DNA from: Gordonia polyisoprenivorans
Lineage (GTDB): Bacteria > Actinomycetota > Actinomycetes > Mycobacteriales > Mycobacteriaceae
NCBI RefSeq assembly: GCF_017654315.1
Contig: NZ_CP072203.1
Coordinates: forward strand, 2,542,001-2,606,000
Length of the DNA stretch: 64,000 nt
Direction of reading: 5' to 3'
Made by a program: the position numbers and the translations under genes
Notes under the pieces: generated by a model
What the model was told of the DNA's origin: nothing
Seen by the model: the letters and a program-made list of their open reading frames with translations, nothing else
The model's database searches: none
Shown here: positions 16,987 to 29,193 of the stretch, piece after piece
Position numbering within the stretch: position 1 is the stretch's first letter
Layout: every line of letters starts with the position of its first letter

Positions 16987-18102
16987 ATGACCACTGTCTC
17001 GCAGGCTCCGATCGCCGAGTCCGCGCCGACCACCCGCGGTGCGGTTGCCCTCCGGGCTATCCGCAAGGTGTATGCCAACGGCCACGTCGCGGTCACCGAC
17101 ATCGATCTCGACATCGCCGCGGGTGAGTTCGTCTCGCTCCTGGGACCGTCCGGGTGCGGTAAGACGACGCTGTTGCGCATGCTGGCCGGTTTCGAGCGGC
17201 CCACCGCCGGTGACATCACCCTCGACGGGGCCTCGATCGTGGATGTGCCACCCGAGCGTCGCCCGGTCAACACCGTGTTCCAGTCCTACGCGCTGTTCCC
17301 GCACATGACCGTGGCGCAGAACGTGGGTTTCGGTCTGCGTCAACGCAAGGTGGCCAAGAAGGAGATCGGCCAACGTGTCGCCGACGCGCTCGGGCTGGTG
17401 CAGATGACGCGCTTTGCCGACCGCAAGCCGGCGATGCTCTCCGGCGGCCAGCAGCAGCGTGTCGCGCTCGCCCGGGCGCTGGCGAACCGGCCCGACGTGC
17501 TGCTGCTCGACGAGCCGATGAGTGCGCTGGACCGCAAGTTGCGCGAGGAGATGCAGATCGAACTCAAACTGCTGCAAAAGGACCTCGGCACCACCTTCAT
17601 CTTCGTGACCCACGATCAGGAGGAGGCGTTGTCGATGAGCGACCGGATCGTGGTGATGAGCGAGGGACGCATCGCGCAGGTCGGCGTCGGCAAGGACATC
17701 TACGCTGCGCCGACCAGCCGGTTCGTCGCCGACTTCATCGGCAAGCAGACCTTCTTCGACGTCACCGGCGAGTACGAGGACGGACGCATCGCCACCACCG
17801 ACGGTCGTTTCGCCATCGCCGACACCCCGGTCGACACCACCGGTGGCCTGGTCGTCGCGGTACGCCCCGAGGCGATCTGGTTCGCCGAGAGCGACGCCGA
17901 CGTCGATGCCGCCGACAACGTCGTGTCCGGGACCGCCGCAGGGGTGTCGTTCCTCGGTGACCTGACGCAGGTGGTGGTCACCACCGACGCGGGTACCGAG
18001 GTGCTGGTGCGCGGCGCCACCCGCAACTTCCCGCCACTGCACGAGGGGCAGCGTGTGCGATGCACCTTCGCCGGCTCCGACACCCTGGTGTACGCCAAAT
18101 GA
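16987..18102 (+). CDS. potA: Polyamine-type ABC importer ATPase
   Basis: A 371-residue ABC ATPase with Walker [10 protein letters not shown] (about residues 51-59), signature L-S-G-G-Q-Q-Q-R and Walker B L-L-L-D-E-P near residue 177. The C-terminal 120 residues form a TOBE domain, as in PotA/UgpC/MalK-type importers. GAAAGG precedes the ATG. Its stop overlaps the binding-protein start (ATGA), making a three-gene operon. Confidence 0.88.
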
Positions 18103-19280
18103 TCGGGCGCGCACCATCGGCCGCGCCGGACGCGGTACGCGCACTGGTCCCGAAGCAATCCGTCGCGCGCATCACCCGTCGCAGCTTCCTCGCCGGAATC
18201 GGTGTGGCGGTGGCCGGGGTCACCGTGTCGGCGTGCGGTGGCAGTCACAAGATCGCGAGTTCGGCGCCGATGGGCACCGCCGCCGAGGGCAGGCTGAACT
18301 ACTACAGCTGGGGAGACTACGAGGACCCCAACGATCTCGACGGCTACGAGAACCGCTTCGGTGTCACGCTTCAAGTCGACTCCTTCGGCTCCAACGAGGA
18401 GATGATCGCCAAACTCGCTGCGGCCCGCGGAACCTCGGGGTATGACGTGGTGGTGCCCACCGGGGTATACATCCCGCAGATGGTGGAGCACGACCTGCTC
18501 GATCCGCTCGACCATGCGCGCGTGCCCAACCTTGCCAACCTCGAGGAGCGGTTCTTCGACCCGCCCTGGAATCCGCGCTCGCGCTACGGCGCCTGCAAGG
18601 ACTGGGGCACCACCGGATTCATGTATCTCAAGTCGCTGACCACGACGACCCCGACCACGTGGCGTGACTTCATCGAGTTGGCACAGGGCCCGGCCCGGGG
18701 CAAGGTCAGTGTCCTCGAGGATCCCTGGGAGGTGGTCTCGATTGCCATGGGGGCGTTGAACATCGACCCGAACACCACCGACGGGAAGGATCTCGCCGCG
18801 GCGCGCACGCTACTCGTCAACGAACTCGCGCCGACGCTGCAGGGGTACAACTCGTCGATCACCTCGGTGGTGTCGGGGGGTGCCTACAGCTTGCTGCAGG
18901 CGTGGAACGGCGACGCGCGTCTGACACTGACGAACGAGAGCGACCCCGACAAGTGGGGATTCGTCTACCCGTTGCCGACGGCCAACCTGTTCGTTGACAA
19001 CTTCGCGATCGTGCGCGGGACCCAACATCCGGTCGCCGCACACGAATTCATCAACTACATGCTCGACCCGGAGGTGTCGTACCGGGAGATGGAGTACATC
19101 GGCTACCAGACCGGGGTGAAAGGGATGGCGGAGAAGGGCCGGGCCGCCGACCTCGACTACCCCGACCTGTTGTTCCCACCCGACGAGGTGGTCGATCGGC
19201 TGGTGTCGGCCAATGTCGACTCGGCCACCCAGGAGCGCACCGAGATCCTGGGCCAGATGCAGGCGAGGAGCGCCCGATGA
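18099..19280 (+). CDS. potD: Polyamine-type substrate-binding lipoprotein, Tat-exported
   Basis: A 393-residue PotD/PotF-like binding protein. The N terminus has a twin-arginine motif R27-R28-S-F-L and then a lipobox V-S-A-C with Cys46, so it is predicted to be exported by Tat and lipidated. The mature part has the family features [17 protein letters not shown] and W-G-T-T-G. The ligand is inferred as putrescine, spermidine or a related amine. Starts within the potA stop and overlaps the permease start by four bases. Confidence 0.85.
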
Positions 19281-21118
19281 CCACCACCGTCGACACCCCG
19301 GCGATCACCCCAGAACCGATCACCCCGACCCCGAAACCGCCATGGCGGCAACGGTTGTTCGGTGCAGGCGGGCTCACCTTCCCGGCCTGGGCGTATCTGC
19401 TGTTCTTCTTCGTCGTCCCGGTGGCACTGGTGGTGTGGTACAGCTTCGGCTACAAACCCGACCAGTTCACCACCTATGCCACCGACCAACTGAGCTTCGG
19501 TCGCTATTCGGAAGCCTTCGGCGCGGACTACCGGTCGACCTTCTACAACACCCTCACCATCGCCGTCACCGGAGTGGTGATCGCGCTTGCCGTCGGTGTG
19601 CCGTTCGCCTATTGGCTTGCGGTCAAATCGAATCCGCGACGACGCCCGATCTATCTCGCCCTCATCATCATCCCGTTCTTCACCAACTTCCTGGTGCGCA
19701 CCATCGGCTGGCAGATCACCCTGGCCCCGTCGGGATGGCTCTCGGGTGCGATGCAGAGCATGGGGCTGGGCGAACTCGGCATCCTCTACACCCGCGCCGC
19801 GGTGCAGGTCGGCGTGGTCTACAACTACCTGCCGCTGATGATCTTTCCCCTGTACGTGGCGATGGATCGTGCGGGTCTGTCGCTGCGGGAAGCCGGGCGC
19901 GACCTCGGTGCCAACCGCTGGACGACGTTCTTCCGGATCACCCTGCCGCTGGCCTCGCCGGGCATCGTCTCGGGCACGCTTCTGGTGTTCATACCGTTGA
20001 TGGGCGACTACGTGACACCGTCGGTGCTCGGCGGTGCCAAGGGCACGATGGCCGGGCAGATGATCGCCGCGCAGTTCGAGACCGCCCAGAACTGGGCACT
20101 CGGCAGTGCCATGACCGTGTCGCTGATGGCGATGGTGCTCGTGTGCGTGGTGATCGCCGGTCTCGTCGTCAAAGGTATTGCGGTGCTTCTGGATCGACAG
20201 GTGTTCTCGGTGACCCTGCCCGACGGACAGCCGGCCGATCCCGGCCCGCTGCCGCGTCTGGTGATGACGCCGCTGCGCACCCGGCGGGATTGGTACTCGA
20301 TCTGTCTGAAGGCGTGGTCGGTCGTGGTCTATGCCTTCCTGTTCCTGCCGATCCTGGTGATCGTCGCCTACTCGTTCAACACCGGGCGTGTACTCGCGTC
20401 GTTCGAGGGATTCGGGTTCGGCGCCTACCGCGACGCGCTCACCGACGACACGATCCTGCACAGTGTGCGCATTTCCTTGGAGGTGGGCCTGCTGTCGGCG
20501 CTGCTGGCCACGCTCCTGGGGTCGCTGGCCGGCATCGCCATCGGGATGTCGCGGCGCCCGCGCTGGTGGTCGGTGGGGTTGCTGGCCCTGCTGACGGTCA
20601 CCCTGGTGACGCCCGACATCGCCGATGCCGTGGCCTTCCTGCCCTGGTATGTGACGCTCGGTGTCGACTGGAATCTGTTGCCGTTCAACAACGGTCTCGT
20701 GCGGTTGGTCATCTCGCACGCGGTGGTGTCGATGGTCGTGGTGACGTTCATCGTGCGAGCGCGGGTGTCGGCTCTCGATCCGGCACTCGAGGAAGCGGCC
20801 GCAGATCTCTACGCCTCGCCGCTCGCGCGGCTGCGCCACGTGATCCTGCCCGCCGCCGCCCCGGGCATCTTCGCCGGGATGATGCTCGCGTTCACGTTCA
20901 GTCTCGACGACGTCGTGATCTCGACCTTCGTCCAGCAGCCGGGTTACACGCCGTGGCCGGTGTACATCTTCTCCGCGGTGCGTATCGCCCTGCGGCCGGA
21001 GGTGGCCGCGATGTCGACGCTGATGCTGGTTCTGACCCTGGTCGTTTTGGCGCTGTCGGCGCTCGTGCTGCGCAGGTCCGGGGAGGATGCGACCTCGATG
21101 GCCAAGATGATCGGCTGA
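19277..21118 (+). CDS. potBC: Fused PotB-PotC permease of polyamine-type ABC importer
   Basis: A 613-residue protein made of two complete permease units that are usually separate. Residues 1-300 are PotB-like, with a first helix near W-A-Y-L-L-F-F-F and an EAA loop E-A-G-R-D-L-G-A-N; residues 330-610 are PotC-like, with a second set of about six helices and an EAA loop E-E-A-A-A-D-L-Y-A. Both EAA loops keep the invariant glycine-equivalent turn that docks onto the ATPase. The fusion fixes heterodimer stoichiometry. The reading frame is continuous, so it is not an artefact of a lost stop. Confidence 0.88.
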   Translation: MTTTVDTPAITPEPITPTPKPPWRQRLFGAGGLTFPAWAYLLFFFVVPVALVVWYSFGYKPDQFTTYATDQLSFGRYSEAFGADYRSTFYNTLTIAVTGVVIALAVGVPFAYWLAVKSNPRRRPIYLALIIIPFFTNFLVRTIGWQITLAPSGWLSGAMQSMGLGELGILYTRAAVQVGVVYNYLPLMIFPLYVAMDRAGLSLREAGRDLGANRWTTFFRITLPLASPGIVSGTLLVFIPLMGDYVTPSVLGGAKGTMAGQMIAAQFETAQNWALGSAMTVSLMAMVLVCVVIAGLVVKGIAVLLDRQVFSVTLPDGQPADPGPLPRLVMTPLRTRRDWYSICLKAWSVVVYAFLFLPILVIVAYSFNTGRVLASFEGFGFGAYRDALTDDTILHSVRISLEVGLLSALLATLLGSLAGIAIGMSRRPRWWSVGLLALLTVTLVTPDIADAVAFLPWYVTLGVDWNLLPFNNGLVRLVISHAVVSMVVVTFIVRARVSALDPALEEAAADLYASPLARLRHVILPAAAPGIFAGMMLAFTFSLDDVVISTFVQQPGYTPWPVYIFSAVRIALRPEVAAMSTLMLVLTLVVLALSALVLRRSGEDATSMAKMIG

Positions 21119-21137: not shown

Positions 21138-21167
21138 CTTGAAGGTGAAACCGGGTTCAAGTACGGT
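21138..21167 (+). promoter_or_regulatory. Promoter with embedded inverted-repeat operator for the SDR operon
   Basis: TTGAAG (21139-21144), a 17-base spacer and TACGGT (21162-21167) form a sigma-70-type promoter. CTTGAA and TTCAAG (21138-21143 and 21156-21161) are the arms of an inverted repeat spanning -35 and spacer. The ATG at 21174 falls at the expected transcription start, so the mRNA is probably leaderless. A closely similar element precedes the lactonase operon at 29164-29193. Confidence 0.65.
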
Positions 21168-21173
21168 CGGGTC

Positions 21174-21995
21174 ATGGAGATCCAGAACACAGTCGCCGTG
21201 GTCACCGGTGCCGGCGGCGGCATCGGTGGTGCGATCGCCCGCGCGCTCAGCGCCGCCGGCGTCCGGGTGGTGTTGACCGACCTCGATTCCGACGCCGTCG
21301 CGCGCACCGCAGAGGCGATCGTCGAGGCCGGCGGCCAGGCGATTGCGCTGTCCGGCGACGCCTCGGACAACGCCCACATCGACGACGTGGTCACCGCGGC
21401 CGGTGAGCATTTCGGACCGGTCGACCTGTATTTCGCCAACGCCGGGATCGGCGGCGCGGCGGGGCTGGATGCCACCGACGACGCCTGGGACACCGTCATC
21501 GACGTGAACCTGATGGCGCATATACGCGCCGCGCGTCGGCTCGTACCCGAGTGGAGCGAACGCGGTCGCGGATACTTCATCAGCACTGCGTCGGCGGCCG
21601 GCTTGCTCACCCAACTGGGGTCGGCGACCTACTCGGTGACCAAACACGCGGCGGTCGGGTTCGCCGAATGGCTCAGTGCCACCTACGGCGACGCCGGTAT
21701 CCGGGTCAGTTGCCTGTGCCCGATGGGCGTCGACACCAAACTGCTGCGTCCCGACCATGCGCCGGACACCGACGGCGAGCGCCTGATGCAGCGAGCGGTC
21801 GAGACCGCCGGCGCTGTGATCACGCCCGAGGAGGTCGCCGACCTCGTACTGGCCGCGATCGCCGATGAGCGGTTCCTGATCCTCCCGCATCCGGAGGTGC
21901 TCGAGATGTACCGCCAGAAGGGTGCCGACTACGACAGGTGGCTGCGCGGCATGCGGCGCTATCAGGCCGCGCTGCTCGCGCCGCAGGACGCCTGA
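21174..21995 (+). CDS. Short-chain dehydrogenase/reductase
   Basis: A 273-residue classical SDR. T-G-A-G-G-G-I-G at residues 11-18 binds NAD(P); N-A-G-I near residue 88 and Y-x-x-x-K in T-Y-S-V-T-K complete the site, with the catalytic Ser in I-S-T-A-S-A. It opens the operon with an acyl-CoA dehydrogenase, an APH-type kinase and TetR. In the levulinate pathway of Pseudomonas an SDR interconverts 4-keto and 4-hydroxyacyl-CoA, which is a plausible role here, but substrate cannot be read from sequence. Confidence 0.88.
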   Translation: MEIQNTVAVVTGAGGGIGGAIARALSAAGVRVVLTDLDSDAVARTAEAIVEAGGQAIALSGDASDNAHIDDVVTAAGEHFGPVDLYFANAGIGGAAGLDATDDAWDTVIDVNLMAHIRAARRLVPEWSERGRGYFISTASAAGLLTQLGSATYSVTKHAAVGFAEWLSATYGDAGIRVSCLCPMGVDTKLLRPDHAPDTDGERLMQRAVETAGAVITPEEVADLVLAAIADERFLILPHPEVLEMYRQKGADYDRWLRGMRRYQAALLAPQDA

Positions 21996-22052
21996 AGCGC
22001 CACCGCCGGCGAATCCGTCGAGACCACAACCGCTCTCATCGAGGAGACAACC

Positions 22053-23321
22053 ATGACCCTGTTCGAACCGTCACCGCGGGCCGAGGAATACCGGCAGAAG
22101 CTGCTGGCCTTCATGGATACCTACATCTATTCCAACGAGGCCGTCTACGACCAACAGATGCGGGAGTCGGCCAATCCACATGCCACCCCCGACATCCTGA
22201 TCGAACTCAAGGCCAAGGCGAAGGCCGAAGGACTGTGGAATCTGTTCCACCCCTACGCCGAATGGGGTCCGGGTCTGTCGAACCTGGAATACGCGCACCT
22301 CGCCGAGATCATGGGACGGGTCGGGTGGGCGCCGGAGGTGTTCAACTGCAACGCCCCCGACACCGGCAACATCGAGGTGCTGACCCTCTTCGGCACCGAC
22401 GAACACAAGCAGCGCTACCTCAAGCCCCTGCTCGATGGTGAGATCGCCTCGGCGTTCGCGATGACCGAGCCCGCAGTCGCCAGCTCCGACGCGACCAACA
22501 TCGAGTTGCAGATGGTTCGAGACGGTGACGACTACGTCCTCAACGGACGAAAGTGGTTCGCCTCCAACGCGGTGCGGCCCGACTGCAAGGTACTCATCGT
22601 GATGGGCAAGACCGATCCGACCGCTCCGACCCATCGACAGCAGTCGATGATGGTGGTGCCCACCGACGCCGATGGTCTCACCATCGTGCGCAACCTGCCC
22701 GTCTTCGGCTACGTCGACCGGGAGAGCCACGGCGAGTTGGTATTCGAGAACGTCCGGGTGCCCGCGACCGATGTCCTCAAAGGGGAGGGTGAGGGATTCG
22801 CGATCGCCCAGGCGCGTCTGGGGCCGGGCCGCATCCATCACTGCATGCGCACCATCGGGATGGCCGAGCGGGCACTGGAACTCATGTGTCGGCGAGCGGC
22901 CGCACGCTCGACCTTCGGACAGTCACTCGCCGATCGCGCCAACATCCAGGACTGGATTGCCGAGGCGCGCATCGACATCGAGATGGTGCGGCTGCTGACC
23001 CTCAAGGCCGCGTACATGATGGACACCGTCGGCAACAAGGCCGCGGCGACCGAGATCGCCGCCATCAAGGTGGCTGCGCCCAACATGGCGCTCAAGATCA
23101 TCGACCGCGCCATCCAGGTCCACGGTGGTGCCGGTGTCACCGACGACTTCCCGCTGGCCATGGCCTACGCGCACCTGCGGACGCTGCGCCTGGCCGACGG
23201 TCCCGACGAGGTGCACAAGCGCGCGATCGCCCGCCGCGAGTTGCGCAGCTACCGGGAAGCCGCCACGGTGCCGGAGACGGTGGCCGGCGTGTCCGACGAC
23301 GCGCTCTCGGCCCGGTACTGA
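22053..23321 (+). CDS. Acyl-CoA dehydrogenase family protein (ACAD10/11-LvaC type)
   Basis: A 422-residue FAD enzyme with the usual three-domain ACAD layout: [15 protein letters not shown] at about residue 140 in the FAD-binding sheet and [15 protein letters not shown] near residue 350. The T-E-P-x-x-A-S-S-D-A form and the immediately following aminoglycoside-phosphotransferase-like kinase gene are characteristic of the ACAD10/ACAD11 group, which processes 4-phosphoacyl-CoA from 4-hydroxy acids. A plain acyl-CoA beta-oxidation role is the alternative. Confidence 0.85.
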
Positions 23322-23379
23322 TCGAATCGGGAAGTCGTTGCAGCGCAGGAGGGTTCGGTGATCAAGTGGGGAGTGGGCG

Positions 23380-24441
23380 ATGAGTGAGACCGACGTGGCC
23401 GGGGCGGGCCTGACGGCGATCGCCGAGGTCGATCCCGTCGCCCTGCTCGGCTGGCTGCGCGGAGCGGGTATCGAGTGGGCCGGCACGGTGCGGTGTACGC
23501 GCGTCGGAGTCGGCCAGTCGAATCTCACCTATCTCCTCACCGACGACTCCGGCGGCCGATGGGTGCTGCGTCGTCCGCCGGTCGGCACCCTGCTGGCGTC
23601 GGCGCATGACGTGGTGCGCGAGGCGCGCATCCTCTCAGCGCTGGCCCCGACCGACGTGGCCGTTCCGGCCGTCCTCGGTGCGTGCACCGACGAGTCGGTG
23701 AGTCCTGTTCCGCTGGTGGTGATGGAGTTCGTGGACGGTGTCGTCCTGGATCGGCTGCCGGCGGCGCAGGCGCTCTCACCCGCGATACGGCGGGCGGTGG
23801 GGGAGTCGATGATCGACACCCTCGCCCGTATCCACGACGTGGACATCGAGCAGGTCGGCCTGGCCGACCTGGCGAGCCACAAGCCCTACGCGGCACGCCA
23901 ACTCAAGAGGTGGAGCGCGCAGTGGGAGAAGTCGAAGACCCGCGAGATCCCGGCGCTGGACGAGTTGACCCGCCGACTGTCGGCGAGTGCACCCGAACAA
24001 CGGGAGACACGACTGGTCCACGGGGACTTCCACATTCGCAACGTCATGATCGATCCGGACAGCGGAACGGTACGAGCGGCACTGGACTGGGAGTTGTCGA
24101 CCCTGGGTGATCCACTCGCCGACATCGGCAGCACCCTGGCGTACTGGCCGGCAGCCGGTGAACCGCCGCTCAGTGCTGCACCGGTGGAACTGCTCGAGGG
24201 GTTCCCGAGCCGCGACGACTTGGCCGCGATGTACCTCGACCGCACCGGCCGTGACGCGACGGCGCTGCGGTTCTGGCACGCACTCGGACTGTGGAAGGTC
24301 GCGATCATCGCCGAGGGTGTGCTCCGTCGTGCGCGGGACAACCCGGCGAACCGAGCCGCCGCCGGCGTCCCCACCGACGAAGTGATCGACGGTCTGGTCG
24401 CGCGGGCCATCGCCGTCGCCGACGCGGCCGGACTCGGATGA
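23380..24441 (+). CDS. APH/ACAD10-like phosphotransferase, putative hydroxyacyl-CoA kinase
   Basis: A 353-residue kinase-fold protein. The phosphotransferase loop L-V-H-G-D-F-H-I-R-N and the metal motif L-D-W-E-L-S-T-L-G-D-P are intact, as is the nucleotide-binding start G-Q-S-N-L-T-Y. Proteins of this subfamily, found next to or fused with ACADs, phosphorylate the 4-hydroxyl of acyl-CoAs (LvaA, ACAD10/11) rather than antibiotics. The gene lies in the same operon, 58 bases after the ACAD. Confidence 0.85.
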   Translation: MSETDVAGAGLTAIAEVDPVALLGWLRGAGIEWAGTVRCTRVGVGQSNLTYLLTDDSGGRWVLRRPPVGTLLASAHDVVREARILSALAPTDVAVPAVLGACTDESVSPVPLVVMEFVDGVVLDRLPAAQALSPAIRRAVGESMIDTLARIHDVDIEQVGLADLASHKPYAARQLKRWSAQWEKSKTREIPALDELTRRLSASAPEQRETRLVHGDFHIRNVMIDPDSGTVRAALDWELSTLGDPLADIGSTLAYWPAAGEPPLSAAPVELLEGFPSRDDLAAMYLDRTGRDATALRFWHALGLWKVAIIAEGVLRRARDNPANRAAAGVPTDEVIDGLVARAIAVADAAGLG

Positions 24442-24469
24442 CGACGCTGATGGGTGAGAAGATGTCGGC

Positions 24470-25213
24470 ATGACTGCACGTGATTCGCGCGCGGTGGGGA
24501 CACAGCCGTTGCAGACACCGCCGGTGGAGACACCGCCGGTGGGGGAGCAGCCGCTTCCCCCGCTGGCGGTGACCGACGGCGACAAGGCGCCGCCGGTGAC
24601 CGCGCGCGGCGAGCGTACCCGCTCCGCCCTGATTGCCGCCGCGCGCCGGATCTTCGAGCGCGACGGCTTCTCCGACGCACGACTGACCGACATCACGGCC
24701 GAGGCGAAGTGTTCGACGGGAACCTTCTACACCTATTTCGACAGCAAGGAAGAGGTCCTCGACGCCGTCCTCGCGCTCGCCCACGAGGACATGCTGCATC
24801 CCGGGCTCCCGCACATCGAGACCGATCCGCACGAGGATCCGTATGCGGTGCTCGAGGCCGCCAACCGCGCGTACTTCGAGGCGTACAAGCGCAACGCCGG
24901 ATTGCGGCTCGTTCTCGAGCAGGTGACCGCCAACATGCCGGAGTTCCGCGAGAAGCGGCGTCAGCGCGGGCTCGTGTTCGCGACCCGAAATGCCAGGCAC
25001 ATCAAGGATCTCCAGGACCGCGGCCTTGCCGATCCCGAACTCGATCCGCTGGCTGCGGCGAGCGCGCTCTCGGGCATGGTCTCGCGGATGGCCTACCAGG
25101 CCTTCGCACTCGGCGACGATGCCGATCTGGATCAGATGGTGTTCACCGCAACCCGGTTGTGGGCCAACGCCATCGGTTTACGGAGTGGTGATCGCCGACC
25201 GTCTCGACGGTGA
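24470..25213 (+). CDS. TetR-family regulator, candidate controller of the cluster
   Basis: A 247-residue repressor. A Pro-rich N-terminal tail of about 45 residues (with the repeated T-P-P-V) precedes the HTH, whose recognition part is L-T-D-I-T-A-E-A-K-C-S-T-G-T-F-Y-T-Y-F. The C-terminal ligand domain is wholly helical. Being the last gene of the SDR-ACAD-kinase operon, it is the natural candidate to bind the operators at 21138-21167 and 29164-29193, with an acyl-CoA or lactone-derived effector; QsdR of Rhodococcus is a TetR regulator of a comparable lactonase operon. Confidence 0.86.
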   Translation: MTARDSRAVGTQPLQTPPVETPPVGEQPLPPLAVTDGDKAPPVTARGERTRSALIAAARRIFERDGFSDARLTDITAEAKCSTGTFYTYFDSKEEVLDAVLALAHEDMLHPGLPHIETDPHEDPYAVLEAANRAYFEAYKRNAGLRLVLEQVTANMPEFREKRRQRGLVFATRNARHIKDLQDRGLADPELDPLAAASALSGMVSRMAYQAFALGDDADLDQMVFTATRLWANAIGLRSGDRRPSRR

Positions 25214-25219
25214 TCGCAC

Positions 25220-26470
25220 TCAGACCGGTCGGACGCCCATGAGCGCGGCCAGTTGCCGGGCCAGCGGGGTCAGGTCGAGGCGGTCGGGGTCCTTCTTAGG
25301 TGTCGAATCCCATGGCTGCGGCGTGTTCGGATTGGCGTAGACGGTTCGCGCGGCACTTCGGACGCCCGTCGGATTGCCTTGTGGAACAGCGCATCCGGCG
25401 CCGGTATTGAACGGGAAGTCGTCGTAACGGATGTCGAAATCCGGGTTTGCGCGTTTCATCTCGTCGATGATGCGGGTGGTGCCCTCGTATCCCTGAGTGC
25501 ATGCCGGTGGGTTGTTCGTCTCGAGCACGACACCGAAATGGATCTGCCCGTCGCCGGGGGCGGTGGAGTGGCCACCGGCCGAGAGGTTGGACAGCATCGA
25601 GAACGTCAGGGACGTGGTGTAGGTGGCAGGTCGGATCGTGCGCATCACCGACGCCAGGTCGTGGACGACCTTTGCGGCGTCACCACCGTTGCGCTGCAAC
25701 AGTTCCGAGAGCTGGCTGGCCGAGGCGCTCCCGGTGGTCAGCAGCCGGCGCAGGTCCGGATCGGACGCCGAGAGCGTTGCCGTGAGCACGTCGAGCCCGT
25801 GCGACCAGGTGAGAATGGCATCGGACTGGTCGGCCTGGGTGGCCAGTACCGAATTCGCGTCGCGGATCAGTCCGATGGTCGCGGGCAGATTGTCGGCGCC
25901 GTCGGCGGCCAGCGTCGACAACGAGTCGACGAGCCGGGACAGGTTGTCGCCCTGTCCGTTCAGCGCTTTCCCGAGTTCGGTGATCACGGTGTGTAGGTCG
26001 TCGAGCGGTATCGATTGTGCGAGTCGCACGGTGGAGGCCACCACCTCATCGAGAGGCGGTGGCACCGAGGACCTCGTGATCGTCGACCCGTCGTGGAGGT
26101 GCGCATCGTCATCGCCGCGGGTCGGCTGGAGGTCGATGAATTGTTCGCCGATCGCGGATCGGTTGGCGACGACCGCCATTGCCGACGCCGGGACCTTCGG
26201 CGCGTCCGAGTCCAACTGGAGTTCGACGTCGACGCCGTCGTGCGTGAGACGCAGGGGCCCGACGCGGCCGACGGGTATGCCGAGGTAGGTGACCTCAGCA
26301 TTGGTGAAGATGCCCCCGGAATCGGGGAGGTGTGCGGTCACCGTGTACACCCCGACGCCGACGACGCGGTTCACGTGGACCAGCCAGATCCCCGCGACCA
26401 CGCTGACCACCAGCCCGAGGACGAGGATCGCGGTGATCTGAAGTCGCGCAATCCGACTCAGCGGTGGCAT
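25220..26470 (-). CDS. Orphan MCE-family (MlaD-domain) protein
   Basis: A 416-residue protein with one N-terminal membrane segment (about residues 9-30) and an MCE/MlaD domain (about residues 38-120; G-G-I-F-T-N-A-E-V-T-Y-L-G-I-P-V-G-R-V is its core), then helical sequence and a Cys-containing tail (A-C-T-Q-G, A-G-C-A-V). In actinobacteria such proteins normally come as six consecutive genes behind two yrbE permeases; here there is a single gene and no permease. It ends 7 bases from the convergent tetR. A 7-base-pair hairpin (26493-26510) lies in its leader. Lipid shuttling to the neighbouring acyl-CoA enzymes is inference only. Confidence 0.85.
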   Translation of the reverse strand: MPPLSRIARLQITAILVLGLVVSVVAGIWLVHVNRVVGVGVYTVTAHLPDSGGIFTNAEVTYLGIPVGRVGPLRLTHDGVDVELQLDSDAPKVPASAMAVVANRSAIGEQFIDLQPTRGDDDAHLHDGSTITRSSVPPPLDEVVASTVRLAQSIPLDDLHTVITELGKALNGQGDNLSRLVDSLSTLAADGADNLPATIGLIRDANSVLATQADQSDAILTWSHGLDVLTATLSASDPDLRRLLTTGSASASQLSELLQRNGGDAAKVVHDLASVMRTIRPATYTTSLTFSMLSNLSAGGHSTAPGDGQIHFGVVLETNNPPACTQGYEGTTRIIDEMKRANPDFDIRYDDFPFNTGAGCAVPQGNPTGVRSAARTVYANPNTPQPWDSTPKKDPDRLDLTPLARQLAALMGVRPV

Positions 26471-26615
26471 GTGTGAGGACCCGACCCTTCCGCCTCGCGT
26501 GCTCGCGAGGCCGCTCGAACATTACTCGGGGGTAAGGTTCGGCAGCCAGGGCTCTGTGGTCAACGCCGCGCACAACCCCCGCTATGACTGACGACATAGC
26601 CGGCGGTCGGTGTGG

Positions 26616-28133
26616 TCAGTGCGGAACCGAGATCAGCGGTGCGCGGTCGATGGCCCGCTTGAGGATCTTTCCGGTTGCCCCCTTGGGCAGTTCGTCGACG
26701 ACGTGCACGATGCGCGGCACCTTGTAGGCCGACAGGCGTTCTTTTGCCCACTCGCGCAACGTGTCCTGCTCGATCGTGGCACCCGGGCGCACCGCGACGA
26801 CGGCGACGATCTCCTCGCCGTAATGGTCATCGGGTATTCCGATGACGGCAACCTCGACGATGCCGGGGTGGGTGTAGAGGACCTCCTCGACCTCACGGGG
26901 ATACACGTTGTAGCCGCCACGGATGATGAGGTCCTTGGCGCGATCGACGATGCGGACGTCGCCGTCGGCGTCCATCGAGCCCAGATCGCCTGTGCGCAAC
27001 CATCCGTCGACGAGTTCGGCCGCGGTGGCGTCGGGTCGATTCCAGTAGCCGGTCATCACCGTCGGACCATTGATGAAGATCTCACCGACCTCGTCGGCGG
27101 GCAGGACGGTGCCGTCGGGGTCGCGGATCTCGATCCGGAATCCGGGCAGAGCCGTCCCCACGGTCCCCACCTTGGGCGGCCCGTCGAGATTGCGGAAGGT
27201 GGCGGTGCCCGCGGTCTCGGTGAGGCCGTAGCCCTCGAGGATGGAGCAGCCGAACCGCTCCTCGAAGACGCGGATCACTTCACCGGGAAGGGAGGCGCCG
27301 CCCGAGCAGGCCAGGCGCAGGTCGGCGAAATCGCTCGGGGTGTAACCACCGGTGACCTGCAGCATGGCGTTCCACATGGTGGGCACCCCGCACGCGATCG
27401 TGATGTGCTCGTCGCGCAGGCGATCCATGAACTCGGTCGGCGTGAAGGGGCTCATCAGCGACAACGTGCCCGCCCAGGTGAGTGCGCCGTGCATGACGAC
27501 CACCTGACCGAAACAGTGGAACAGAGGTAGCGCGGTGGCCCAGCGCTCGGTGTCGTGCAGGCGCAATGCGTCGCGGAACGCCTGTGGCGCGGCGTTGACG
27601 TTCGCGATGCTCAGCTGTGCGCCCTTGGGTTTGCCGGTGGTACCGGAGGTGTAGAGGATCACCGCCGTCTGGTGCTCGTCACGCTCGATATACGTTGTCA
27701 CACCGTCGATCTCGGGGGAGTCGTCCTCGAAGGGCCCGATCTCGGTGAAGGGCAGCCCGCGCAACTCGGCGACCGCACGGGCATTGGTCGCACAGTCCTG
27801 CCAGGCGACGATCATCATCGTGCCCGAATCGTCGACGACGTAATCGATCTCGGGAACCGTCGACATCACGTTCATGGTGATGACGGTGGCGCCGAGGGTG
27901 TGCAGTCCGTAGTAGACGATCGGGAACTCGGGGATGGTCGGCGCGATGAGCAGGACTCGATCTCCGGGGGCCACCCCGGCGGCGGCGAACCGGGCCGCGG
28001 CCCGGGCGATGCGGGCCCGGAGGTCGGCGTAGGTCAGCGCACGCGACCCGCTGCGCACCGCGACGCGATCGGGGTGGTGCTCGGCATTGTTCCACAGGGC
28101 GGCAACGGGATTGGCTGTGACAGCAGTGTTCAT
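26616..28133 (-). CDS. Acyl-CoA synthetase (AMP-forming), QsdC-like position
   Basis: A 505-residue ANL-superfamily ligase that activates a carboxylic acid to its CoA thioester through an acyl-adenylate. The P-loop Y-T-S-G-T-T-G-K-P-K-G, the G-Y-G-L-T-E-T motif, G-W-L-R-T-G-D-L-G and the hinge R-A-K-D-L-I-I-R-G-G-Y-N-V-Y-P are complete, and the C-terminal lysine motif G-A-T-G-K-I-L-K is present. It starts 10 bases after the lactonase gene, so one transcript is expected. In Rhodococcus the lactonase qsdA is followed by a fatty acyl-CoA ligase, qsdC; this gene has the same place. Confidence 0.9.
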   Translation of the reverse strand: MNTAVTANPVAALWNNAEHHPDRVAVRSGSRALTYADLRARIARAAARFAAAGVAPGDRVLLIAPTIPEFPIVYYGLHTLGATVITMNVMSTVPEIDYVVDDSGTMMIVAWQDCATNARAVAELRGLPFTEIGPFEDDSPEIDGVTTYIERDEHQTAVILYTSGTTGKPKGAQLSIANVNAAPQAFRDALRLHDTERWATALPLFHCFGQVVVMHGALTWAGTLSLMSPFTPTEFMDRLRDEHITIACGVPTMWNAMLQVTGGYTPSDFADLRLACSGGASLPGEVIRVFEERFGCSILEGYGLTETAGTATFRNLDGPPKVGTVGTALPGFRIEIRDPDGTVLPADEVGEIFINGPTVMTGYWNRPDATAAELVDGWLRTGDLGSMDADGDVRIVDRAKDLIIRGGYNVYPREVEEVLYTHPGIVEVAVIGIPDDHYGEEIVAVVAVRPGATIEQDTLREWAKERLSAYKVPRIVHVVDELPKGATGKILKRAIDRAPLISVPH

Positions 28134-28143
28134 GAGGAGGCTC

Positions 28144-29103
28144 TCACTCGAAGTAGCGGCGGGGGACCTCGACGAGCATCGTGGTGATCTGCTCGTCGGT
28201 GACTCCGCGTTCGCGCAGGGTCGGCAGGACGTCTTCGCTGATATGGCGGTAATTCCACTTGGGCACCGCCTGCTTCTTGGCCTCGGGATCGAACCAGTCG
28301 ATGAAGCATGCGGCGTCGTGGGCGAGCCCGATGCGGTCGGCGTATCCGCGTTTGCACAGTTCGACGATGGTGTTGATGCGATCGTCGAAGGGCAACAAGA
28401 CGTCGAGCCCGAACCGATCCATGCCGAGGATCGACCCGGCGTCGGCGATCTTCATCAGGTAGTCGAGGTCGGTGCTGTCTCCGGAGTGTCCGATGACGAC
28501 CTTGCTCAGATCGGCACCCTCCTCGGCGAGCACACGCTGGGCGACGAGCCCGGATTCGGTGTGCGGATTGGTGTGCACGGTGATGGGCGCGCCGGTGGCG
28601 ACACTGGCCTGTCCGACCGCGCGCATCACCCGCTCGACGCCCGGTGTCAGTCCCTGTTCCTCGATGGCGCACTTCAGGAACGCCGCCCGGACGCCGGTGT
28701 CGGCGATGCCCTCGGTGAGGTCGCGCACGAAATAGGTGACGAGCGGTTCGTCGACGTCGAAAAGCAGGCCCGGGCCGGTGTAGTGGAACTGGAAAGGGAT
28801 CTCGTTGTAGGTGTAGAGCCCGGTCGCCACGACGATGTTGAGGTCGACCTGCTCGGCGATCTTCTGGATGCGGGGGATGTACCGACCGAGACCGAGGACC
28901 GTCGGGTCGAAGATGGTGTCGATGCCCAGGGACTTGAGTTCGTTGAGGTCGCGGACGGCCTCGGCGATCTTGCGCTCTTCGTCCCAATCGTCCTGATAAT
29001 TGATCCGATATTCCTCGCCGACGACGAAGACGTGTTCGTGGATCAGGGTGCGACCGAGTTCGTCCGAGGAGATCGGACCGGTGACGGTGGTGACGGTGGA
29101 CAT
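28144..29103 (-). CDS. qsdA: Phosphotriesterase-family lactonase, QsdA-like
   Basis: A 319-residue amidohydrolase-superfamily enzyme of the PTE-like lactonase group, which hydrolyses gamma-lactones and N-acyl-homoserine lactones. All metal ligands are visible: H22-E-H24, the carbamylated Lys144 in A-F-L-K, His177 in T-V-H-T, His206 in I-G-H-S-G-D, and Asp263 in A-H-D-A-A. Y-T-Y-N near residue 97 lies on the substrate side. GAAGGGA precedes the ATG by five bases. Opening a gamma-lactone gives a 4-hydroxy acid, which the downstream ligase could activate. Recognition of QsdA rests on family features and on memory of the rhodococcal protein; phosphotriesterase activity is less likely. Confidence 0.85.
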   Translation of the reverse strand: MSTVTTVTGPISSDELGRTLIHEHVFVVGEEYRINYQDDWDEERKIAEAVRDLNELKSLGIDTIFDPTVLGLGRYIPRIQKIAEQVDLNIVVATGLYTYNEIPFQFHYTGPGLLFDVDEPLVTYFVRDLTEGIADTGVRAAFLKCAIEEQGLTPGVERVMRAVGQASVATGAPITVHTNPHTESGLVAQRVLAEEGADLSKVVIGHSGDSTDLDYLMKIADAGSILGMDRFGLDVLLPFDDRINTIVELCKRGYADRIGLAHDAACFIDWFDPEAKKQAVPKWNYRHISEDVLPTLRERGVTDEQITTMLVEVPRRYFE

Positions 29104-29163
29104 GCGCTTCCCTTCGATGCGAGCGAAATCCGGTGATGCGCTGTGGTCTGCATCACTGCATGG

Positions 29164-29193
29164 ACCCTAGTTGAGGGTGAGTTCAGATTCAAG
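29164..29193 (-). promoter_or_regulatory. Promoter/operator of the lactonase operon
   Basis: On the minus strand TTGAAT (29192-29187), a 17-base spacer and TAGGGT (29169-29164) form a sigma-70-type promoter. CTTGAA at one end and CTCAAC at the other give an imperfect inverted repeat that aligns with the SDR-operon element at 20 of 30 positions, including -35, -10 and the TGAA inside the spacer. Confidence 0.6.

Follow-up and report, generated by a model that had tools for sequence, protein, structure and literature searches.

A shared operator links a QsdA-type lactonase to an ACAD10/11-type dehydrogenase and kinase operon in Gordonia polyisoprenivorans: a candidate regulon for gamma-lactone and 4-hydroxy-acid catabolism

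What is a lactonase of the quorum-quenching kind doing opposite an operon for a kinase and an acyl-CoA dehydrogenase (ACAD) related to enzymes that act on 4-hydroxyacyl-CoA? The question is raised by a locus of Gordonia polyisoprenivorans (NCBI RefSeq assembly GCF_017654315.1), whose genome is one contig of 6,033,879 bases (~6.03 Mb). The window analyzed here is the whole stretch of 64,000 nucleotides from 2,542,001 to 2,606,000 of the forward strand of that contig (NZ_CP072203.1), and all positions given below are counted from its first letter. Between 21174 and 29103 two runs of genes face each other: a plus-strand run encoding a short-chain dehydrogenase/reductase (SDR), the ACAD, an APH-type kinase and a TetR-family regulator, and a minus-strand run encoding a lactonase of the phosphotriesterase (PTE) family, an AMP-forming acyl-CoA ligase and an MCE-family protein. 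The initial annotation had named the first six of these genes, all on the correct strands, and had left out the MCE gene (25220–26470). We propose, with a probability of about 0.73, that the two runs form a regulon of two operons for the catabolism of gamma-lactones and 4-hydroxy acids. Judging by its family, the lactonase would open the gamma-lactone ring, and the ligase would then make the 4-hydroxyacyl-CoA. From similarity and conserved residues, the kinase is predicted to phosphorylate the 4-hydroxyl and the ACAD11/LvaC-type enzyme to eliminate the phosphate, yielding an enoyl-CoA for beta-oxidation, two steps that the literature has demonstrated for ACAD10/11 and LvaA/LvaC. The SDR may interconvert the 4-oxo and 4-hydroxy forms, and a single TetR protein would bind the operator before both operons and release it with a lactone or acyl product as the presumptive ligand. 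Removal of the hydroxyl would let the ring-opened product burn as an ordinary fatty acid.

The two operons are tied together by a 25-bp operator, TTGAANNTGAAN7TCAANTA (TTGAANNTGAANNNNNNNTCAANTA), that occurs once before each of them. Site 1 (TTGAAGGTGAAACCGGGTTCAAGTA; 21139–21163, plus strand) lies 10 bp 5' of the SDR start codon and site 2 (TTGAATCTGAACTCACCCTCAACTA; 29168–29192, minus strand) 64 bp 5' of the lactonase start codon. The pattern was found by aligning upstream regions and was seen 5' of both the SDR and the lactonase in most of the Gordonia loci examined; 100 dinucleotide shuffles of the window held 0 occurrences (expected by chance 0.00). At up to one mismatch the whole genome contains exactly two sites, namely the two operon promoters, and the reversed-pattern control gives 0; one point counts against reading too much into this, since the pattern was derived from Gordonia promoters that include these two sites, and their own match is by construction, while the lack of further sites is not. 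An operator that precedes both operons and is confined to them at this stringency gives independent support to the proposal, already made in the initial annotation, that the two constitute one regulon. What is new is this one operator common to the lactonase and the ACAD/kinase operons, and it makes the regulon testable. The initial annotation ran from 21138 to 29193, end points that fall one base outside the two operators, which it did not describe.

The same pattern recurs across the genus. In 59 Gordonia genomes there are 58 motif sites, versus 5 for the reversed control, and 43 of the 58 lie at promoters of the cluster (18 before the lactonase, 23 before the SDR and 2 before operons of the order ligase-TetR-lactonase in loci L139 and L140); the remaining 15 lie elsewhere, some beside ligase, transporter or carboxylase genes. 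The motif also follows the cluster's TetR gene (24470–25213, plus strand), relatives of which, counted at E <=1e-30, are present in 29 of the 59 genomes: 26 genomes have both, 3 have the TetR only, 1 has the motif only and 29 have neither. The cluster TetR is the putative binder of the operator and the proposed repressor at both sites. The genes and the motif are also lost together, in that the ACAD (E <=1e-180) is present in 22 of the 34 Gordonia genomes whose lactonase is at least 80% identical, and all 12 that lack the ACAD carry neither TetR nor motif; among those 22, sites with at most one mismatch stand at both promoters in 17. A further 88 sites in the fetched loci, 82 of them near a cluster gene, were not used as evidence, most of these loci having been chosen for holding these genes. 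Outside Gordonia, the SDR of Rhodococcus and the ACADs of Nocardia (L070) and Nonomuraea (L090) are each preceded by a site with one mismatch, and in Janibacter a site lies 0.8 kb before the ACAD. In another Gordonia (L137), a 60% identical lactonase and a divergent 52% identical TetR share one site, again with one mismatch.

Some copies of the motif lie apart from the two promoters. Three Gordonia genomes have an identical extra copy (L130:6263, L131:5939 and G049:C1:5117248), which in L130 stands directly before a gene for a luciferase-like monooxygenase, with an acyl-CoA ligase gene beyond, a possible further member of the regulon. Copies at L134:5660, L135:10054 and L146:6106 adjoin genes for a qsdD-like transporter, a TetR protein (76%) or an acyl-CoA carboxylase and may likewise extend it.

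The chemistry that we propose depends on the identity of the ACAD (422 aa; 22053–23321, plus strand), the candidate 4-phosphoacyl-CoA phosphate-eliminating enzyme, and of the kinase (353 aa; 23380–24441, plus strand), the candidate 4-hydroxyacyl-CoA kinase of the LvaA/ACAD11 kinase-domain type. The best solved relatives of the ACAD are ACAD11 chains (443, 441 and 434 bits) and 4hr3 (427 bits), and the next, an ordinary ACAD, scores 147 bits. In mouse ACAD11, the 4-phospho group is held by residues R626, H634 and R637, with D753 serving as catalytic base, a set described as common to ACAD10/11 and LvaC and absent from conventional ACADs (PMC12440821). R255, H263, R266 and D382 of the window ACAD align with these four. 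Across 98 fetched loci, several of which come from the same genome, we found 53 ACAD matches of at least 60% identity; six are too short, and the R, R, H, R and D are kept in all 47 that reach the five positions (one shorter match of 57% likewise stops before them). Two ordinary ACADs in the same loci have G at the position of R626, V or I at that of H634 and E at that of D753, and one of them has R at that of R637. The kinase matches 9o56, 3dxp and the ACAD11 kinase domain (E 5e-41); its D216, N221, R80 and R173 correspond to the catalytic D220 and N225 and the CoA-site R86 and R176 of the LvaA/ACAD11 kinase domain, and the D, the N and the two R (the latter located by motif, not structure) are kept in 36 of 36 matches in the loci. 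By score and residues, the ACAD groups with ACAD11 and not with ordinary ACADs, and the kinase matches the partner family of the ACAD10/11-LvaC enzymes, as the initial annotation had assigned them. The chemistry of ACAD10/11 and LvaA/LvaC is itself already known (PMC11342911, PMC12440821, PMC6692424). Mammalian ACAD10 and ACAD11 resemble the Gordonia pair in uniting kinase and ACAD and in the diagnostic residues, and differ in that the Gordonia activities reside in two separate proteins; a lactonase partner is not described in the available portions of the ACAD10/11 papers.

Other neighborhoods of such ACADs were also recorded. On a Deinococcus radiodurans plasmid (L129), an ACAD11-type ACAD is grouped with phosphotransferase, histidine phosphatase, SDR and MaoC genes, and a histidine phosphatase accompanies the lva genes of P. 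citronellolis too. The plasmid search listed no kinase gene beside the ACAD in C. necator pHG1 or R. koreensis, in a gene table that is incomplete.

The lactonase (28144–29103, minus strand; Pfam PTE, 1.2e-90) contains H22, H24, K144, H177, H206 and D263, which we take to be the binuclear metal ligands (H, H, carboxylated K, H, H, D) of the PTE family. All six are present, as the initial annotation had claimed, and the same residues appear in the alignment with 4if2; they are kept in 92 of 92 lactonase matches of at least 60% identity from the fetched loci, some of which overlap. The phosphotriesterase homology protein 4if2, presumably from M. tuberculosis, is of the same PTE-like lactonase family and more distant (404 bits, versus 541 bits for the R. 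erythropolis protein). Over 319 residues the window lactonase is 74% identical to that of the R. erythropolis NBRC 15567 locus that we took as qsdA from its neighbors, with qsdR, qsdC and qsdD (L073) named by position according to the gene order in PMC4640858. By sequence it is a close QsdA relative, and its description as QsdA-like stands. Its closest named relatives belong to Gordonia (in the best 80 of 96 matches), with G. oryzae at 97%, and a plasmid search gave a best rhodococcal match of just 45.5%. A function as organophosphate hydrolase was rejected, the score of 132.9 falling far below the model cut-off of 500.

The likeness to the rhodococcal qsd system goes as far as the QsdA-type lactonase, the acyl-CoA ligase that follows it and the presence of a TetR regulator in the vicinity, and then ends. 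The window ligase (505 aa; 26616–28133, minus strand) is 34% identical to QsdC versus 52% to another R. erythropolis ligase, which lies beside the ACAD operon of that species, and the cluster TetR has no significant similarity to QsdR (E 0.10). The window cluster contains no qsdC or qsdD orthologue and no divergent qsdR. Control of the window lactonase by QsdR was rejected, given the dissimilar TetR and the lack of any qsdR match of at least 45% in the Gordonia loci checked. Whereas the Gordonia lactonase shares its operator with the ACAD/kinase operon, R. erythropolis qsdA has qsdR adjoining it, and the operator (at most one mismatch) is found there before the SDR only; at up to three mismatches the R. 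erythropolis stretch has none at qsdA and one further weak match before qsdD. The initial annotation had pointed to the ligase and TetR that accompany rhodococcal qsdA and had seen in the locus a possible extension of that system; by these comparisons the window ligase and TetR are not QsdC and QsdR. The coupling of a kinase/ACAD pair to a qsdA-type lactonase survives from that idea, and the notion of a described qsd operon with genes added does not, because the ligase is so distant from QsdC and the TetR unlike QsdR: the lactonase has the same operator as the ACAD/kinase operon, rather than a qsd operon having gained genes. The qsd operon and its induction by gamma-caprolactone were already known (PMC6262395, PMC6476934, PMC3689677, PMC4640858).

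The coupling is not special to this genome, because R. erythropolis has relatives of the SDR, ACAD and kinase starting 9, 11 and 13 kb from the qsdA start. The order there (L113) is qsdR divergent from qsdA-qsdC-qsdD, then a TetR (54%), a HAD hydrolase, a ligase (52% to that of the window), a TetR (57%), a MaoC dehydratase, an SDR (63%), an enoyl-CoA hydratase, the ACAD (78%), a second SDR, the kinase (62%), an SDR and two ACADs. The ACAD and kinase close to qsdA are surrounded by an enoyl-CoA hydratase, a MaoC dehydratase and further SDRs and ACADs. Skermania (L071) and Jongsikchunia (L099) have all five genes (qsdA, ligase, SDR, ACAD, kinase) consecutively on a single strand, together with a divergent qsdR. 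Among 301 genomes drawn from the family, 123 had a PTE, 159 an ACAD and 171 a kinase at the chosen thresholds, ACAD and kinase being counted as placed when among the matches listed. A PTE of at least 66% identity occurs in 55 genomes, 39 of them with a placed ACAD, and 28 of these 39, from 8 genera by label, have the two genes on the same contig and no more than 30 kb apart. At 51–65% identity the PTE occurs in 75 genomes, 33 with a placed ACAD and 11 with the two linked, in 3 genera. Random placing in a 4-Mb genome would link them in ~1.5% of cases, an expectation to be read with the proviso that the genomes are related and not independent trials. The gene arrangement is more than chance. As a separate observation, the HAD-like hydrolase gene of R. 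erythropolis (L113:6125–6832, plus strand) lies between qsdD and the second ligase; mammalian ACAD10 has a HAD-like domain beside its kinase and ACAD, and the same three parts are thus found near each other in L113.

Several findings weigh against the proposed regulon. Among the 22 Gordonia genomes with both a PTE of at least 80% and the ACAD, three (G009, G040 and G050) have the SDR site only and two (G019 and G048) have neither. The 12 of 34 genomes in which a PTE of at least 80% lacks an ACAD orthologue imply that the lactonase has some use without the ACAD. In the wider draw, no ACAD was placed in 16 of the 55 genomes whose PTE is at least 66% identical, and the two genes are unlinked in 11 of the 39 with both (in one, G053, both genes are near contig ends); at 51–65% identity, 22 of 33 are unlinked. 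Within full-length PTE loci, the ACAD lies within ~10 kb in just 26 of 52, a count lowered by loci that end short of the ACAD, such as that of R. erythropolis. In five Gordonia loci (L037, L039, L057, L115 and L121), PTE, SDR, ACAD and TetR form a cluster without kinase or ligase. The best kinase match elsewhere in those five genomes is 37–40% identical, and therefore either a distant kinase serves or the ACAD acts otherwise there. The diagnostic ACAD residues are intact in these clusters. Finally, a Gordonia subgroup keeps the lactonase beside the SDR alone, which suggests a direct step between lactonase and SDR, one without counterpart in the route drawn by the initial annotation.

The alternative that survives best starts from the SDR (273 aa; 21174–21995, plus strand), which may be a 4-oxoacyl-CoA reductase in an LvaD-like role or a 4-hydroxy-acid dehydrogenase. 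The locus could serve a levulinate-like pathway for 4-oxo acids, with the SDR reducing the 4-oxoacyl-CoA to the 4-hydroxy form for the kinase and ACAD and the lactonase merely clearing lactones formed in side reactions. Ligase, SDR, kinase and ACAD match LvaE, LvaD, LvaA and LvaC of the P. putida lva operon (LvaA, B, C, D, E) in kind (PMC6692424), LvaA, LvaC and LvaD having been compared by kind and not by sequence. The Gordonia locus departs from lva in its TetR in place of the sigma-54 type LvaR, its added lactonase and its two facing operons. No room exists for an lvaB-like gene between the plus-strand genes of the window, whose gaps are 57, 58 and 28 bp, and none was sought elsewhere in the genome; lvaB is also absent from P. 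citronellolis (PMC6692424). A mere clearing role for the lactonase sits poorly with two facts, namely that the lactonase and the SDR operon have the same operator and that SDR orthologues adjoin the lactonase in L042, L044, L045, L046, L048 and L089, loci without a ligase, kinase or ACAD orthologue, and we regard the 4-oxo-acid pathway as unlikely. In the first five of these loci, the Gordonia subgroup mentioned above, lactonase and SDR converge and the locus has no operator or TetR orthologue either.

A second alternative, which we hold to be quite improbable, is that the locus serves chiefly quorum quenching: the lactonase would open N-acyl-homoserine lactones (AHLs) and its neighbors would burn the acyl chain, along the lines suggested for the rhodococcal qsd operon. 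The identity of the lactonase to that of the R. erythropolis qsdA locus speaks for it, QsdA and QsdC being reported to serve AHL degradation (PMC6262395). Against it stand the want of a qsdR match of at least 45% in the Gordonia loci checked and of qsdC and qsdD orthologues in the window cluster, as well as the activity of the studied kinase/ACAD pairs, which act on 4-hydroxyacyl-CoA (PMC12440821, PMC11342911), no direct product of AHL hydrolysis. The literature is divided on inducers even for qsd: QsdR acts at qsdA (PMC6262395) and its repression is lifted by AHL or gamma-caprolactone (PMC6262395, PMC6476934), and calorimetry found no lactone binding to QsdR (PMC4640858). That the locus is a chance neighborhood of unrelated lipid genes is very improbable in the face of PTE-ACAD linkage in 8 labeled genera, one shared operator and joint loss, for all that such genes abound in the family (148 first-look ACAD candidates in one genome, for example) and that their arrangement varies.

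A regulon of the proposed kind would bear on how lactones are used in related bacteria. The gamma-lactone pathway of Rhodococcus has been described as ring opening, CoA ligation and then 'a beta- or omega-oxidation step' (PMC3689677); the present data point to specific genes for removal of the 4-hydroxyl, both in Gordonia and in R. erythropolis itself. They also suggest that the quorum-quenching lactonase of many soil actinobacteria may serve feeding on lactones, signals being destroyed incidentally. More tentatively, and with doubts that outweigh our confidence, we raise the idea that actinobacterial QsdA-type lactonases evolved chiefly to head 4-hydroxyacyl-CoA beta-oxidation or to act as its repair arm, with quorum quenching as a by-product, and that in Gordonia, where no QsdR adjoins it, the lactonase came under the TetR operator of the ACAD operon. 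In either role, the lactonase would reopen gamma-lactones that had been taken up or had arisen by cyclization of the cell's own 4-hydroxyacyl-CoA, and the products would be re-thioesterified and passed to the kinase/ACAD pair. Among the matches listed from the open-licence literature, no title or opening abstract brings a QsdA-type lactonase together with the kinase/ACAD pair, and in one such list (20 of 21 papers) none has both qsdA and any of LvaA, ACAD11 or 4-hydroxyacyl-CoA. The proteomics of Barbey in 2012 may name some of these enzymes.

The remaining features are minor. The lactonase and ligase genes are 10 bp apart, and 145 bp separate the ligase from the MCE gene, the third on the minus strand, which encodes an orphan and optional MCE-family protein (NCBIfam MCE, 183.8 bits versus a cut-off of 140.5). 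Of the loci compared, the window, L112 (96%) and L043 (76%) alone have the gene here in full length; L047 has a short 48% match and the others none, and on that account it was rejected as a core part; its family hints at uptake of a lipophilic substrate. The gene 5' of the window lactonase encodes a YkuD protein. On the other flank, polyamine-type ABC transporter genes were rejected as members of the unit, since they adjoin the SDR in some Gordonia only. In the window they occupy 16987–21118 on the plus strand, end 55 bp before the SDR and include two permease domains in one 613-aa protein.

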